64,000 bases of DNA from Thalassomonas actiniarum (lineage in GTDB: Bacteria; Pseudomonadota; Gammaproteobacteria; Enterobacterales; Alteromonadaceae). The stretch's first letter is position 1, and every line of letters begins with the position of its first letter. Positions 3,524 through 62,243 of the stretch are shown here, piece after piece. The notes below the pieces were generated by a model. It was not told the origin of the DNA. It saw only the letters and a program-made list of their open reading frames with translations, and searched no databases. The stretch covers positions 1,240,001 to 1,304,000 of the forward strand of contig NZ_CP059735.1 of assembly GCF_000948975.2 (NCBI RefSeq). Reading direction: 5' to 3'. The translations under genes were made by a program, and so were the position numbers.

Positions 3524-4465
3524 TTACTCCTGCAGCCCGATATCCTTGCTTGATGTCACTTGCTGAACCTGCTTGTTAGTGCCGTATACCTGATTGTAAT
3601 ATCTGGCCATATCCTGCCTGGCGGACTCACTGACCCAGTTGATATGGCTGTTAAAATAATCATCTCCCCGGCTGATTTTTTCAATGATTTTATCTATTTT
3701 ATTTACCAGGGTGAGTCCCTGCGGTGTTTTTGAGCAAAGAATATAACCGAGCACATAGGGCGGGGACTCGGCGATGGCGAAACTGGTGATTAAAGGGTCT
3801 TTGCCGCCATCCGGGCGGTAGCGGTCGAAGATGCTCGGGTATTCAAAAATAAAGTCCACCCGATCGGCAAACAACATATCTATGATACCGCTTGCCATGT
3901 CCTCACCGGTACGGTTCCAAAAGTGTTTTTGCCAGGCAGGAGCCGAGATTAAATTATCCAGTTGACCGGTATAAGATCTGCCGTCGACGATACCGAATTT
4001 GGCCGTTTTGATTTGTGTTAATACCTGCTCCACCGATATCGCCTGGCGCTCATCCCGCAGTGCTTTTATTTTATTGAAGTAAACGGAGTTCTTCTTCAGG
4101 TAAAGGCGCAACCCGGGATAAATGGACTGGGGATATTTGCTGGCATAGCTGAAATTGAGTCTTTGTTCGGAAACGGTTTTATTGCCGGTACAGGCATGGT
4201 CTTTACTTTTAAGCAGGTTAAAAGCGCTGTTGGTATTGGCATAAAGCACCCGGGTTTGGTATTCCCCCAGGCCGTCTAATATCATGGTCATGGTTTCCCC
4301 CATGATATCCATGTTTTGTGCGTGTTTTTCTTTCGGGTTAAAAAAACTGGAATGGGTCAGCCAAAGCAGCTCCTGGGCATTGGTATTAAAGCTGATGCAG
4401 GAAACTAAGGCGAACACCAGAGAGCAGAAGATACCTTTAGGCATCAATGAAGTGAAAAAAGACAT
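3524..4465 (-). CDS. Periplasmic solute-binding-like protein (TIGR02285-type)
   Basis: 313 residues with a signal peptide (about 1-30, ending TNAQ) and the overall layout of family 3 extracellular solute-binding proteins. It resembles the stand-alone TIGR02285 group common in marine gammaproteobacteria, which have no ABC permease next to them. None is present here either. The next gene upstream is a chemoreceptor read in the same direction, so a sensory rather than a transport role is possible. Ligand unknown. Confidence 0.7.
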   Translation of the reverse strand: MSFFTSLMPKGIFCSLVFALVSCISFNTNAQELLWLTHSSFFNPKEKHAQNMDIMGETMTMILDGLGEYQTRVLYANTNSAFNLLKSKDHACTGNKTVSEQRLNFSYASKYPQSIYPGLRLYLKKNSVYFNKIKALRDERQAISVEQVLTQIKTAKFGIVDGRSYTGQLDNLISAPAWQKHFWNRTGEDMASGIIDMLFADRVDFIFEYPSIFDRYRPDGGKDPLITSFAIAESPPYVLGYILCSKTPQGLTLVNKIDKIIEKISRGDDYFNSHINWVSESARQDMARYYNQVYGTNKQVQQVTSSKDIGLQE

Positions 4466-4621: not shown

Positions 4622-6160
4622 TTATTTAAAGGTGGTGCTTAAGGCGTCTATTTCTGCGGCGCTGTGGTGAACGCCTAAGCCATGCTCATTGACTTGTTGT
4701 GCCCTCTGGGTATTCTCGCGTGAGATATCGTCAATGGTATGGATACTTTGGGTGATCTGGGCTGCAACCAGGTTTTGTTGCTCGGTAGCGGTGGCAATTT
4801 GTGCGGTAATATCGCCGACACCGTTCATCATTTCGGTGATATCCGCTATGGTTTGTTTGATTTGGGTGGATTCCTGGCTACATTCCTCGGCATTGTCTTT
4901 GCTGCTCAGCATAGCGACACTCCACTGTTTCAAAGTGCTTTGCAGTTCAACCACAGAATCCTGAATTTGTACCGCGGCATCCTGGGTTCTGCTGGCTAAG
5001 GTTCTGACTTCATCGGCGACCACAGCAAAACCGCGCCCCTGCTCCCCGGCACGGGCAGCTTCTATGGCGGCATTGAGGGCCAGCAGGTTGGTTTGATCGG
5101 CAATGCCCTGGATTTCCGCCATCAAGGTGGAAATTTTATCAGCATCCGTAACTAAGCCATTGGCGCTTACCGAGGCATTGCCCACCTCAGAGCTTAATGT
5201 GGAAATTTTATCCTGACTGGCATTGATCACTCTAATGGCCTGTTGACATTCCTTTTGTACTTCCTGGACCTTGTCATGGGCGTAGACGGTATTTTTACTG
5301 ACGTCCTCGATAGTGGCGCTCATTTCGGTAATGGCGGTGGCCAGCTGCTCTAAATGATTATTCTCATCGAGCAGACCTTCGAGGGATTTCGAAGAGTTTT
5401 GGGTTAATGTGGTTGATAAGTCGAATATTTTCTTTCCTGTGTCATGGCTGCGACCTAAGATAGTCCTGACCTTGGCCTGCATTAATTTCAGGGAGTAGTC
5501 GGCAATACCGCTGACCCCTTTCCCTGAATAGATATAGCGGGACGGGCTGTCAAAAGAGCTTTGTAACTCTTTGATATATTTGGGCAGTCGAAACAGTTCA
5601 TCAAAGTAGATAGCAAACAGGCCGGCGATCAACACCAGTTGTATTAATGCTGTGGCCGGATCTTTCCCGTATAACCAGGTCAGTAAAAAAGTGAACAAAA
5701 ACAGCAAGATTGCCAGGGTCCTTTTTAAAGCAAAATTGGCGCCGAAATCAGAAACCTGTTTTCCCTGATTGATTTGGCTATAAAGTTCTTGCGCCTTGCT
5801 TTTTTGCTCTTGCGTCGGACAACAGCGTACCGACTGATAACCTATGATTTTGTTATTTTCATATAAAGGCGTGACATAGGCATCAACCCAGTAATAGTCG
5901 CCGTTTTTACAACGGTTTTTTACCATGCCGCGCCAGGAATCACCGCGCTTGAGTTTCTGCCATAAATCATAAAACGCGGCCTTGGGCATATCCGGGTGGC
6001 GCACAATATTATGGTCCTGGCCGACTAATTCCTTATAGCTGAATCCGGCTACCCGGCAAAAGCTTTCATTGGCGTAGGTGATTTTTCCTTGTGTATCTGT
6101 GGTTGAAACGAGCTGTTCGGATTCGGGGAAGGTGACTTCACTGTCAACTGAATGATTCAT
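4622..6160 (-). CDS. aer: Aer-type PAS-domain aerotaxis/energy chemoreceptor
   Basis: 512 residues, close to E. coli Aer (506). An N-terminal PAS domain (about 15-115) contains [10 protein letters not shown], which matches the Arg-His-x-Asp region of Aer's FAD pocket. Two hydrophobic stretches follow (about 150-190), then a HAMP-like linker and a methyl-accepting signalling domain. Its conserved hairpin tip ([20 protein letters not shown]) is near residues 350-370. There is no periplasmic ligand domain, so it senses cell redox state and steers flagellar motion. A perfect FNR box 98 bp upstream supports the assignment, since E. coli aer is FNR-controlled. Confidence 0.88.
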
Positions 6161-8617: not shown

Positions 8618-9763
8618 TTAAAACGCTTTCTGCCATCCCAGGATAAAGACAGTGCCTGAGTCCATGCCAATGCCGGCATAATCTTCATCAATATCCCGGC
8701 CGATTTCGGCGGCTAGCCTGTGGCCTTTTAAATTGCCTTCGGTAAACAAATAGTTCGCGCCTAGGAATAAGGAGGTTTTTTCCTGTTCATAGTTAGCGGG
8801 CACTGCGGTCGCTGCCATCATAGGGTTGATACGTTTGTCGCTGCCTTCGATGGCATCCTTATCGATATGGTTTAGCCTCAGCGAAAATGAAAGCTGATGG
8901 GATAACCTGTAGGCCAGCCAGCTGTTGAGGGTGAGTTGATTGCCGGGTTTGTATCCCTGATTATTGTTTTCCAGGGCCGTTTTCCATAAGAGTTGCGCGC
9001 CCCAGGAGAAATTGCCCCTGGCCTGGTTGCCGCCATAAGTGATCCCGGTTTCCAGCTGCCAGGTGTCGAAGCCGGTTTGCATGCCGTAGGGCAACAGGGC
9101 ATTTTCTGACATGGGAGTCGTATCCCGCTCTGAGCTGTCAGCTGTGGGCAGGGTAAAAGTGACATTGGCGTGCAGCCTCTGGTGCCTGCTGTTTAAAAGC
9201 GAACCCGGCCAGGGCAGTTTGATTAAAGCGCCGAGGGTGATATCGCCTAACCCGGACGCGTCCGTACTAAAGTTACTTTCGGTCATTGAACCAGAAGTCA
9301 TAGCACCTGAGTGCATGTTATCTGAGTGCATGTTATCTGAGCCCATGGACATGCCGCTCATAGCAAGATCCATTTCATTATCTAACCAGGGGGCCATGGC
9401 CATCAGGGTAATGTTATCGCTGGGGGCATACATCAAGCCCAGCATATGCATTTTCATGGTCATTTCTTTTGGCCGCACCATAAAGTCAGTGTTTGCGTTG
9501 TAGTCACCGGCGGATAGGCTCTTGCTGCCCCGTAACAGGCCATTCATGTCCATGTGCATATAACGGTATGACAGCATCCATTCACCGGTTTTGTGCATAT
9601 GATCAGCCATCACGCCAATGGGGGCATGGGCATCCGGTTGGCTGCTGAAATTGGCGTGGCCGGTACCATGGCCGTAGGAGGTGGCAGGCAAAAAGGCTGC
9701 CATAGCAAGTGATAAGGTGAAAGCCTTAGCTTTAATGTTGGCTTGTATCAGGTTTTTTTTCAT
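8618..9763 (-). CDS. Outer-membrane beta-barrel-like protein with Met/His-rich segment (copper cluster)
   Basis: 381 residues with a Sec signal ending near residue 32. The N-terminal mature part is His-rich (YGHGTGHANF). A central stretch (about 130-165) is packed with Met, His and Ser, with near repeats of SDNMH and SGxM. The remainder has alternating aromatic beta-strands and ends in a terminal Phe (GWQKAF), as outer-membrane barrels do. It is the last gene of the nirK and two-domain oxidase cluster. The Met/His richness suggests copper binding or copper passage. Transport function is inferred only from context. Confidence 0.7.
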   Translation of the reverse strand: MKKNLIQANIKAKAFTLSLAMAAFLPATSYGHGTGHANFSSQPDAHAPIGVMADHMHKTGEWMLSYRYMHMDMNGLLRGSKSLSAGDYNANTDFMVRPKEMTMKMHMLGLMYAPSDNITLMAMAPWLDNEMDLAMSGMSMGSDNMHSDNMHSGAMTSGSMTESNFSTDASGLGDITLGALIKLPWPGSLLNSRHQRLHANVTFTLPTADSSERDTTPMSENALLPYGMQTGFDTWQLETGITYGGNQARGNFSWGAQLLWKTALENNNQGYKPGNQLTLNSWLAYRLSHQLSFSLRLNHIDKDAIEGSDKRINPMMAATAVPANYEQEKTSLFLGANYLFTEGNLKGHRLAAEIGRDIDEDYAGIGMDSGTVFILGWQKAF

Positions 9764-50493: not shown

Positions 50494-50711
50494 AAAGACA
50501 GGTTTCCATTAATAACTAAGGCGATAAAAAAGCTATGATATCATGATGGCAATTAAGTTCGCTAACCCAGATGTTACTAAAGTTAACTTTGCGCCAGATC
50601 TAAACTATTCAGACCCGCGCTGCACAGCGCTAGCCCTTGACTATTTGCTTTGTTATCATTGCCTTCATATATTTATCCATTAATTTATTTAGACATTTTT
50701 GAGAGCAAGTT

Positions 50712-58865: not shown

Positions 58866-59230
58866 TGTTTTTCTTCTTATTAAATGGACCAGCGAACTCA
58901 GGTGTTTTGCACACTCGGTTATTTTTGCCGGGTTATTGATTTGACTGGGGATTTTCGCCCGTTTTCAGCCTTTATTTGCATTATTCTCTCATTGAACGCA
59001 AGAAATGGCTATCAAGAATCTCGATGGCGAGAGATAATAGCGGGGCAGTTGTCTGTATTTACGAAGATATTTGTAATTATTTTATCGTCTCTACGGTCAG
59101 GTACTGCTTAGGATAGCAATGTTTTGTTACTTTACTAGGGGTAAATAAATGTCGGCTATCATTGAAAAGCTTAGCGCTATCCCTTAAATAGAGGATATCT
59201 TTTGCAAAACTATTTGCTCCGGGAGTGATT
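58866..59230. other. Intergenic region between the antiporter and gshA
   Basis: About 365 bp between divergent genes. No operator or hairpin stood out. Short open frames here lack protein character. Confidence 0.45.
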
Positions 59231-60796
59231 TTGTCATCTTTTAACGATTATATTGTGGCCTTTAATCAGCAGGCTTATTTACCGTCTTTAACCGGTATTG
59301 GCCGGGGGATTGAGCGGGAAGCACTCCGGGTGCTGCCTGAAGGTAAATTATCTGAAAAGCCGCATGCTTATGATATCGGCTCGGCATTGACACACCCGAA
59401 TATCACCACGGATTACTCGGAAACCTTACTGGAGTTTATTACCCCGGTGAGTTTTGAGCCGGAAACGGCGATTGCACAATTGCAGGATATCCAAAAATTC
59501 ACCTTAAAGCAGATTGACGGTGAATTGCTATGGCCACTGAGCATGCCTTGTTTTGTGAATGACGCCGATAAAATTCCGCTGGCGCAATACGGCACATCCA
59601 ATATCGGCCGGATGAAAAACACTTACCGCCAGGGCTTGAAAAACCGCTATGGCAGTATGATGCAGGTGATCGCCGGGATACATTTTAATTTTTCATTTTC
59701 CAGGGATTTCTGGAAAAACCTGCAAAAAATTGATAACAACAGCGATAACCTGGATGACTTTATCTCAGACCGTTATTTTGCCCTGATCCGCAACTATAAG
59801 CGTTTTTGCTGGTTGATCCCCTATTTATACGGTAGTTCTCCGGTGATCTGCTCTTCGTTTTTGCAAAACAAACCCCAGCAGCTGCCTTTTAAAAAATCCG
59901 GCAGCGGCTATTTGTATTTAGAGCATGCCACTTCGTTGCGCATGAGTGATTTGGGTTATACCAACAGCGCCCAGTCGGCTTTGCACATTTGTTATAACAG
60001 TCTGGACGGTTATGTGGCCGGGGTACAGGAAGCTATCGGCCTGAGTTCGGATGAGTTTTCAGAAATCGGCGTCAAAGTCAACGGCGAATACCGCCAGCTT
60101 AACGGCAATATCCTGCAGATTGAAAATGAGCTTTATGCCCCTATCCGGCCCAAACGGGTGGCTGAATCCGGAGAGAAACCGTCTGAGGCGCTCCAGCGCA
60201 GGGGCGTGGAATACATAGAAGTCAGGGCACTGGATATCAATCCTTTTGTCGATACCGGTATCAGCCTTGAGCAGATTTATTTTTTAGATATCTTTCTCAC
60301 CTATTGTGCCTTGCTGCCTAATCCGGGATTAGATGCCGCGACCCAAAAGGTCTTTGAAGGCAATATGGATGAGGTGGTGCTGCGCGGACGTGATCCGGCC
60401 TTGTTGTTACATGACGGCGACCAGGAAAAATCCCTGGTGCAATGGGGCAATGAAATTTTCAAGGATTTAACTCAGGTGGCTTGCTTGCTGGATAAGGCCA
60501 ACAACAGTAATAGCTATCAGAAGTCGGTTACCGAGGAGTTGGCTAAAATTAACAACCCGGATTTGACTCCGTCGGCCCGTTTAGTGGATTTAGTGGTTAA
60601 CCAGGGCAAAAGCCTGACCAAGTTTGCCCTGTCATCTGCCATCAACTACCGGGCATCACAGCTGGAGAACGGCTATCAGTTTTATAATGAAAATACTTTT
60701 GTTGCCAGTGTTGCCAAATCACATCAGGATCAGGCGGAAATCGAAGCCAGTGACGTGTTAAGTTACGATGACTTTCTAAAGGATTATTTCGCCTGA
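59231..60796 (+). CDS. gshA: Glutamate-cysteine ligase
   Basis: 521 residues from a TTG start chosen because GGGAG lies 5 bp upstream; a GTG at 59225 overlaps that site. The E. coli-type fold is recognised by GIGRGIEREALRV, PNITTDYSETLLEFITP and YVEVRALDINPF-like EYIEVRALDINPF. It makes gamma-glutamylcysteine, the first step of glutathione synthesis. It converges on the tandem repeat array downstream. Confidence 0.93.
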   Translation: MSSFNDYIVAFNQQAYLPSLTGIGRGIEREALRVLPEGKLSEKPHAYDIGSALTHPNITTDYSETLLEFITPVSFEPETAIAQLQDIQKFTLKQIDGELLWPLSMPCFVNDADKIPLAQYGTSNIGRMKNTYRQGLKNRYGSMMQVIAGIHFNFSFSRDFWKNLQKIDNNSDNLDDFISDRYFALIRNYKRFCWLIPYLYGSSPVICSSFLQNKPQQLPFKKSGSGYLYLEHATSLRMSDLGYTNSAQSALHICYNSLDGYVAGVQEAIGLSSDEFSEIGVKVNGEYRQLNGNILQIENELYAPIRPKRVAESGEKPSEALQRRGVEYIEVRALDINPFVDTGISLEQIYFLDIFLTYCALLPNPGLDAATQKVFEGNMDEVVLRGRDPALLLHDGDQEKSLVQWGNEIFKDLTQVACLLDKANNSNSYQKSVTEELAKINNPDLTPSARLVDLVVNQGKSLTKFALSSAINYRASQLENGYQFYNENTFVASVAKSHQDQAEIEASDVLSYDDFLKDYFA

Positions 60797-60988
60797 TAAC
60801 GGGCAGATATCAGATGTGAATAAATACTTTGCATTTAATATCTTTACCTTGCCAATCAGTATCTTTTAAGCCGGGACGAGGACGGTCGTGATTTTGCAAT
60901 TGCTTTGTCCAGGGCGCGGTTTTTGTCTTTATACCCTTGTAAAGCGGATTTTTCCGGCACTTATTGAACCGGGACGATAAAATAAGGC

Positions 60989-61090
60989 AAAAAAAAGCGC
61001 GTTATAAAAACGCGCGCTTTGTTCATAAAACATAAAAATCACTAAGGGAAATAGAAGTCTCTCAATCTTCATACCGTTAGTATGAGTCGG
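60989..61090 (-). ncRNA. Candidate small RNA, unit 1
   Basis: On the minus strand a 5' hairpin (TCATAC...GTATGA, 61069-61085) is followed by a core complementary to 61038-61056. A terminator ends it: GCGCGTT-loop-AACGCGC (60997-61015) and then eight T (60989-60996). No open frame fits. The 5' end is a guess. Confidence 0.5.
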
Positions 61091-61159
61091 TGAAAATCGA
61101 TAAGTTCATTCCTATTTAACTTTTTTATTTTTCCCCGACCGGGCGAAAAAGTATCAGAC

Positions 61160-61258
61160 AAAAAAAAGCGCGTTATAAAAACGCGCGTCATATGTAATAA
61201 ACATAAATCACTAAGGGAAATAGAAGTCTCTCAATCTTCATACCTTAATATGAGTCGG
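61160..61258 (-). ncRNA. Candidate small RNA, unit 2
   Basis: Same layout as unit 1: 5' hairpin at 61238-61253, core at 61207-61225, terminator stem at 61168-61186 and T-run at 61160-61167 on the minus strand. Confidence 0.5.
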
Positions 61259-61334
61259 TGAATAGCGATAAGTTCATTCCTGATAAAACTTTTTTCATTT
61301 TATTTTTCCACCAGCCGGGTGAAAAGTATCAGGC

Positions 61335-61415
61335 AAAAAAAAGCGCGTTATAAAAACGCGCATTATATGTAATAAACATAAATCACTAAGGGAAATAAAA
61401 ATCTCTCGTAAAGTA
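61335..61415 (-). ncRNA. Candidate small RNA, unit 3
   Basis: Core at 61382-61400 and terminator at 61335-61361 match units 1 and 2, but the 5' hairpin is missing and the upstream sequence differs. Confidence 0.45.
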
Positions 61416-61622
61416 GGAGTGAGCAGCTGCAATAAAGTTCATTTTAAATTGCCAGCCGGGGAAAAGTTTTCTCTATTTGTGATAGAAGTATCTGTAACCG
61501 GGGAAAAGCAGTGCCTTGAGTACCGACCTTTAAAAGGCTTGTCGCAAGTTAATTGATTTTCCACCTGTATTTTTATTTTTAATCTGGCATCATGCGGGTA
61601 TATCAGACGAGGGTGACTATTT

Positions 61623-62243
61623 ATGGGTGTTTCTAAATCAGCAATACTTGCTGCTGTCCTGACTGTTAGCTTAGCGGGCTGTGCGACTGCTCCGCCAAAA
61701 AATCCCGAAAATCTTTGTGAGATTTTCAGGGAGCACAGGGACTGGTATTTTGCCGCTAAAGAAGTGAGGGAAAGGTGGGGAGTGCCGATACATGTGCCTA
61801 TGAGTATGATGTATCAGGAAAGCTCATTTAAAGCGGACGCCTTGCCTCCCAGGGATTACCTGCTTGGCTTTATTCCCTGGGGAAGGGTAAGCAGCGCTTA
61901 CGGTTATTCACAGGCGAAAACCATGACCTGGGATGACTATGTCCGTGAAACCGATAACTCCGGCGCCGACCGGGATGATTTTGACGATGCCATCGACTTT
62001 ATGGGCTGGTTTATTTTTAAAACTCAGAAGCTGAACAAGGTATCTAAATGGGATGCCTATGGTCAGTATTTGAATTATCACGAAGGCTGGGGCGGCTATA
62101 AGCGTAAAAGCTACAAAAAGAAGGGCTGGCTGGTTAAGGTGGCGAGAAAAGTCGATAACCGGGCCAAACGATACAGCAGCCAGTTAAAAAGCTGTGAAGC
62201 CGATTTAGATAAGAGCTGGTTATGGCGTTTGCTGTTCGGTTAA
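61623..62243 (+). CDS. Lytic transglycosylase-like lipoprotein
   Basis: 206 residues. A lipoprotein signal ends at LAGC (Cys about 20). The SLT-like domain has the catalytic Glu in MMYQESSFKADA, then SAYGYSQAKTMTWDDY and YHEGWGGY in the expected order. The C-terminus is basic. It would cleave peptidoglycan from the outer-membrane side. The gene has its own terminator at 62271. Confidence 0.83.
   Translation: MGVSKSAILAAVLTVSLAGCATAPPKNPENLCEIFREHRDWYFAAKEVRERWGVPIHVPMSMMYQESSFKADALPPRDYLLGFIPWGRVSSAYGYSQAKTMTWDDYVRETDNSGADRDDFDDAIDFMGWFIFKTQKLNKVSKWDAYGQYLNYHEGWGGYKRKSYKKKGWLVKVARKVDNRAKRYSSQLKSCEADLDKSWLWRLLFG

Follow-up and report, generated by a model that had tools for sequence, protein, structure and literature searches.

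The sequence 3' of gshA in Thalassomonas actiniarum carries, in tandem, three compact candidate genes for small RNAs (sRNAs), each with a promoter, a short predicted transcript and a terminator, which we judge to be real members of a conserved multicopy family. As predicted from its sequence, this is a multicopy sRNA family with σE-type promoters at the locus that micA occupies in E. coli. Its anatomy, promoter geometry, locus, copy number and conservation are observed directly; our preferred reading, which we regard as probable, is that these are three tandem genes for a σE-dependent, trans-acting sRNA that descended from, or replaced, a single micA at the gshA 3' locus and was multiplied, with three copies here and three dispersed. 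The window referred to throughout is the whole 64,000-nt stretch of DNA that was analysed.

A tandem array of candidate sRNA genes beside gshA

The array and its two flanking genes comprise the following features (window coordinates).

59225..60796, plus strand: gshA, glutamate-cysteine ligase, which flanks micA in E. coli also (Pfam PF04262, E 3.2e-161)
60989..61074, minus strand: unit 1, predicted sRNA of ~86 nt with a 5' extension (core 61040-61063, terminator stem 60997-61015)
61081..61107, minus strand: unit 1, predicted σE promoter GAACTT-N16-TCATA
61160..61242, minus strand: unit 2, predicted sRNA of ~83 nt with a 5' extension (core 61209-61232, terminator stem 61168-61186)
61249..61275, minus strand: unit 2, predicted σE promoter GAACTT-N16-TCATA
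61335..61407, minus strand: unit 3, predicted sRNA of ~73 nt (+1 at 61407, GAGAG...; core 61384-61407, terminator stem 61343-61361)
61414..61440, minus strand: unit 3, predicted σE promoter GAACTT-N16-TCCTA, with the geometry of E. coli micA
61623..62243, plus strand: gene with an SLT_4 transglycosylase domain, the array's far flank, found beside the arrays of other genera too (Pfam PF19489, E 3e-80)

The three minus-strand units follow one another at start-to-start distances of 169 and 175 bp, and Tandem Repeats Finder (TRF) reports a period of 175 with 87% matches, so that the three tandem units of ~173 bp described in an earlier note on this DNA are real. All of them contain the core GAGAGAYTTYTATTTCCCTTAGTG and, on the minus strand, an identical terminator made of a GCGCGTT/AACGCGC stem followed by eight T, as that note had also reported. 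It had put the distance from core to terminator at 21-23, a figure that depends on the definition used; by our measurement, the end of the core and the start of the stem are 24, 22 and 22 nt apart. Terminator-like sites in the array region number five, against a shuffle mean of 0.8; on the plus strand, too, units 1 and 3 have stems with terminator-like scores. No open reading frame of at least 60 aa lies over the array, in agreement with the claim that no protein frame fits.

Transcription starts were predicted by counting 6 nt from the -10 element, as in E. coli micA. On this count the +1 of unit 3 is 61407, and units 1 and 2, but not unit 3, have an extended 5' end. The 5' hairpin previously ascribed to units 1 and 2 is only partly retained: the two share a predicted 5' extension, but the hairpin itself, TCATAC...GTATGA, overlaps the predicted -10 and is mostly promoter, and the greater part of its 5' arm is therefore not expected in the transcript. 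A CCGG-containing stretch with flanking T and A runs, variable among the genus members, recurs ahead of the promoters (61129-61148, 61311-61324 and 61452-61465).

The array is still best read as a multicopy sRNA that is non-coding, lies on the minus strand and ends at intrinsic terminators. Conservation confined to the terminators, which the earlier note had named as evidence against it, was not seen: promoter, 5' end and core are kept as well. That note had mentioned neither the identity of the sRNA family nor its σE-type promoters, its micA-like position beside gshA or the three further copies described below.

Further copies and related sRNA classes

Three extra copies lie ~0.8 Mb from the array in the same 7.49-Mb genome, bringing the total to six. 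This dispersed trio falls within 4.5 kb (4265-4377, 5954-6060 and 8669-8781 of locus L005, G000:C1:2126000-2138000). It directly precedes a gene whose product resembles a contractile tail sheath protein, and a close trio of copies is also present in the other three genus members. With up to two mismatches, the core was found in 6 of 59 related genomes, with 6, 6, 6 and 5 copies in the four genus members and 1 and 2 copies in two genomes of other genera. Among public genomes, the pattern TTTCCCTTAGTGWTTYATGTTT recovered 44 stretches from Colwellia, Cognaticolwellia, Thalassotalea, Thalassomonas, Litorilituus and unclassified members of the wider group.

A covariance model built from 27 class I copies (R1) scored 94.5, 93.3 and 87.7 bits on units 3, 2 and 1, respectively. 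At E up to 0.01 its matches covered 88 of the 295 family genomes searched and 28 of 52 genera, near-threshold matches possibly including chance ones. At the order level, with E up to 0.001, nine of 295 genomes were matched, eight of them in the family; the ninth match (G542, L296) lacks a nearby promoter of this type and seems to be a terminator matched by chance. A permissive rule detected an upstream promoter in 84 of 87 R1 matches at 42 loci. Of the three others, one sits at a contig end and two carry the motif at the same spacing with an A before TC.

Two more sRNA classes with the same promoter type occur in these arrays: class III (GTTTCCCTTGGA) and class II (GAAAGCAAAACCTCCCTGGACTGCTTTC), the latter taking the position closest to gshA in the arrays read. 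The order III, I, I, II is recurrent, and arrays with up to three classes and GAACTW-N16-TCNTA promoters were seen at L054, L041, L039, L051, L055 and L114. By eye, class II has a candidate fold, GAAAGCA...TGCTTTC around CCUCCCUGGAC. Searching this genome for the class II pattern with two mismatches gave no match, and the minus-strand sequence CCCTGGAC near 60910, considered as a class II relic, is poorly kept within the genus. Twenty sRNA array loci scanned with Rfam gave no match at the gathering score.

Near-identical seeds in several copies, some of them tandem, are also known from Qrr, PrrF and OmrA/B. These have other regulators (σ54/LuxO for Qrr, Fur for PrrF and OmpR for OmrA/B), whereas here a σE-type promoter precedes every copy. 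Additive action of the multiple candidate sRNAs, which the earlier note had mentioned for multicopy tandem sRNAs in general, is plausible.

Comparison with the micA locus

The E. coli K-12 micA gene, which lies between luxS and gshA (PMC2956633), is on the strand opposite to gshA and ends 8 nt from it. The window's array is likewise 3' of gshA and on the opposite strand, but has an SLT-domain gene on its far side instead of luxS, and six copies exist in the genome. The arrangement recurs: tblastn detected gshA in 46 of 100 sRNA loci; 44 of the 100 are named, 15 of them with gshA, and many of the 56 unnamed ones overlap. An SLT-domain gene and a CNNM-type gene lie beyond the array in many of the gshA loci.

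The units also resemble MicA (RF00078) in the layout of promoter and RNA. The E. coli micA promoter reads GAACTC-N16-TCTGA, followed after 6 nt by GAAAG (GAAAGAC); in unit 3, GAACTT-N16-TCCTA is followed after 6 nt by GAGAG, and the σE-type promoter with identical spacing, 6 nt from the -10 to the predicted +1, is common to the units. Like MicA, the predicted RNAs of the units are ~70 nt long, begin with GARAG, contain CCCU in the core and end at an intrinsic terminator. The two differ in the core itself, UUUCCCUUAGUG in the units and CAUCCCUGAA in MicA, and Rfam release 15 at gathering scores found neither MicA nor any other family in the whole window. At E up to 5, the region 60800-61640 gave only weak matches, MicA not among them; these (the L20 leader, mmgR and others) fall below their gathering scores. 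One of them, mmgR/suhB (RF00519), has a weak likeness in its UCCCU core before the terminator and reached 17.6 and 17.7 bits in the window, against a gathering score of 41. The Rfam MicA model matched its positive controls, E. coli (83.9 bits) and locus L287 (47.4 bits).

We then compared gshA loci of other genera. Within 350 bp of gshA, the opposite strand had a strong promoter match at 17 of 30 such loci (18 of 31 with E. coli included), compared with 2 of 31 on the same strand and 36 of 434 control segments, which lie mostly inside gshA; the strong matches at L273 and L279 look spurious. A gshA-adjacent, opposite-strand sRNA candidate with the same layout was recognised at 16 of the 30 loci; the other 14 were left out of the model set because no such sRNA was seen there. 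In most of the kept candidates the core contains UCCCUG or UCCCCUG and resembles TTTTCCCTGG or CATCCCTGAA; L269, L276 and L280 depart from this. At L287, which has a weaker promoter match, the sRNA is an Rfam MicA above the gathering score; in 20 of these loci scanned with Rfam, a set without L287, nothing matched at gathering scores. The gshA-adjacent sRNA at L264 (3047-3118) matches mmgR/suhB weakly, at 34.5 bits against the gathering score of 41, perhaps by convergence on the UCCCUG core.

From the promoter and RNA of these 16 sRNAs and E. coli micA, with no class I sequence, we built a second covariance model (R2). It detected all three units, at E 1.9e-8 (unit 3), 2.7e-8 (unit 2) and 3.2e-7 (unit 1), the next match in the window standing at 0.75, and the dispersed copies at 2.2e-6, 3.1e-5 and 2.5e-4; 400 kb of the same genome, searched as a control, yielded one match, at E 0.75. 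The units score 43-49 bits in this model, the E. coli rybB region 19.3 and the rpoE promoter 14.3, and the micL region gave no match up to E 10. With a transcript-only model (R3), none of the window's units was recovered up to E 5, two relatives matched weakly (E 0.033 and 0.083) and 160 kb of control DNA gave nothing. The R2 signal for the units is thus largely one of promoter and layout, and the case for descent from micA is stronger in promoter, position and layout than in RNA sequence. In the reverse search, R1 found the sRNAs of L280 (E 0.0018) and L267 (E 0.0036) among the other genera, three further ones (0.067, 0.076 and 0.7) and an off-position match in L280 at 0.017; it missed E. coli micA and L287 up to E 5. 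Overall, the locus and promoter shared with micA are well supported, and common RNA ancestry only moderately so.

A σE-dependent family unrelated to MicA could alternatively have arisen or landed beside gshA and spread, acting in the manner of MicA or RybB. The silence of the transcript-only model and of Rfam MicA in the window speaks for such an origin; copies also exist at a second locus, and any σE promoter with a terminator resembles R2 somewhat, as the rybB score illustrates. However, position, orientation, promoter-start spacing, the purine-rich GARAG start and the CCCU core all agree with micA, the intermediates at the same place grade from the Rfam MicA of L287 through types with CAUCCCUGAA and UUUCCCUGGA, and R2 places the units 24-29 bits above rybB. 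We consider an independent origin unlikely and retain descent from, or replacement of, micA as the probable reading.

In print, BLAST found MicA conserved among the Enterobacteriaceae, with one partial match in Lactobacillus (PMC4618604), and a Bordetella homologue with 60% identity has been described, whose level was similar in an rseA mutant (PMC12235514). An Alteromonas primary transcriptome lists 127 chromosomal sRNAs, and the main text of that study does not mention gshA (PMC5864184). Open-licence literature on MicA or small RNAs together with Colwellia, Thalassomonas, Alteromonas, Pseudoalteromonas, Vibrio or Shewanella did not turn up this family.

Promoters and the sigma factor

The motif GAA[CT]T-N16-CTCNTA (27 C, one T) stands at fixed spacing upstream of the core in all 28 distinct copies, drawn from 26 loci examined (L006-L031) in six genomes of three genera, and the positions between the two promoter elements are mostly variable. 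The pattern TGAACTW-N16-TCNTA occurs seven times in the 7.49-Mb genome, six of these being the three array and three dispersed sRNA copies; its reversed control occurs four times. Within the window, GAACTW-N15-NTCNTA has four matches, three of them in the units; 200 Markov simulations of the window averaged 0.12 matches, and none reached three. The fourth, at 50534-50560 on the minus strand, is followed by no sRNA core.

Published σE motifs include GGAACTTTT and GTCAAA (PMC1804206), and the σE promoter of Rna01 has the layout GAACTT-16-TCTTA, its start lying 6 bp further on (PMC9577009). RybB, MicL, VrrA and Rna01, other σE-dependent sRNAs, resemble the array in σE promoter geometry (seen upstream of rybB and for Rna01) and in the outer-membrane role expected of it, and differ from it in locus and sequence.

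The same array could be served by another ECF sigma factor instead of σE. The RpoE family model has 18 matches in this genome, and the -10 of the sRNA copies is CTCNTA, while the site upstream of rpoE reads GTCCTA. Only one of the 18 matches, however, passes the RpoE cut-off, and this gene, rpoE, carries GAACTTTTTCGCACATGCACAGTCCTA upstream, with the layout GAACTT-N16-TCCTA; among eight ECF loci read it is the sole carrier of the 27-bp motif, which is absent upstream from the other seven. E. coli micA, moreover, is σE-dependent (PMC4618604). We therefore regard a different ECF factor as quite improbable and σE as the probable regulator.

Hardly credible, finally, is a reading of the units as non-RNA repeats (mobile miniature repeats or terminators that were duplicated) or as the source of a cis antisense RNA to gshA. 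In its favour, copies are both tandem and dispersed, transcripts would face the gshA 3' end and two stems look terminator-like on the plus strand as well. Against it, promoter, start, core and terminator are conserved and spacer and flanks variable, the neighbourhood is similar in other genera, and of the predicted RNAs the one closest to gshA stops ~190 bp short of it.

Predicted targets and mode of action

A first scan searched three genomes for the complement ACTAAGGGAAAT, allowing one mismatch, and gave 34, 45 and 29 matches versus 50, 37 and 36 for the reversed control, and hence no consistent excess of the 12-mer complement. Forty of these sites were read (28 non-sRNA sites of this genome, G000; 12 of 24 in G003; none in G001). 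The site preceded the start in five distinct genes, none of them a TonB receptor by its translated start. In a sample of 800 kb together with the window, the duplex energies of 631 genes did not favour exported proteins (p 0.24). An exact 12-nt core complement lies 4.3 kb from the G001 array, in the other orientation (G001:C1:1403369-1403380, L123).

A second scan, for AACACTAAGGGAA with one mismatch in 13 genomes, returned 126 matches versus 43 in the control, many of them the sRNAs themselves. We read 80 places, at least two of which are sRNAs and none of which is in G004 or G029, and found by eye eight sites at most ~26 nt before a start codon (L305, L308, L316, L319, L343, L351, L355 and L359), L343 having been added after reading, as the script's rule had missed it. 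Sites within a frame, over the start or farther upstream were not counted, among them L338, L353, L354, L361, L365, L376, L379 and L357; at L357 (G000:C1:5943700-5945000), the core complement lies ~130 nt before the start of a TonB-receptor-like gene. Four of the eight counted ribosome-site matches precede genes of the TonB-receptor type: L308, L343 and L351 with a Plug domain, and L355, which we take for a probable Oar-like receptor, with a CarboxypepD_reg domain. The binomial tail is 1e-5 for four of eight and 1e-4 for four of 13 with the first scan included, in a post hoc test with an assumed base rate of 2%; the 631-gene sample had a single TonB receptor by motif. Target predictions are weak overall, and TonB-dependent receptors are the best candidates.

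Two other candidates were set aside. A site before the start of a PhoP-like response regulator gene, ATTAAGGGAAAT, fits 12 core nt in G000, G001 and G003, but is mismatched in G002 and also forms the end of the upstream coding frame; in a comparison that matched 29 of 30 genomes and covered 25 start sites, it was kept outside the genus only as a partial likeness in single genomes. OmpA (PF01389) was detected in 2 of 10 genomes, this one not included (no OmpA_membrane match at E 0.001), and the leader of the only good gene showed nothing clear.

From these observations we infer transcription, the use of σE and Hfq, the targets, their repression and common descent with micA. Under envelope stress, σE would be freed and would transcribe each unit from its own GAACTT/TCNTA promoter into a short RNA ending at the U-tailed terminator. 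The U8 tail of this terminator is the one feature seen that fits an Hfq-dependent RNA. Presumably with the help of Hfq, the exposed UUUCCCUUAGUG would pair with ribosome-binding sites of outer-membrane protein mRNAs, those of TonB-dependent receptors being the foremost candidates, and the pairing would block translation.

Implications

Stress control by sRNAs is commonly illustrated with MicA, which has been described as an enterobacterial gene (PMC4618604). A possible course of events, which we advance tentatively, is that in the Colwellia-Thalassotalea-Thalassomonas group micA became a tandem array with up to three seed classes (UUUCCCUUAGUG, CUCCCUGGAC and UUUCCCUUGGA), all under σE and some moved elsewhere, while the targets shifted from OmpA-type porins to TonB-dependent receptors. 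If the micA locus is old in the order and was amplified into arrays of several classes in one marine lineage, it would offer a readable case of sRNA duplication, seed change and the gain of new targets, with intermediates available in public genomes. It would further predict a σE repression arm in these marine bacteria, of which we found no report in the open-licence literature. The array suggests that a textbook regulator known as a single copy has been multiplied in a bacterial family.
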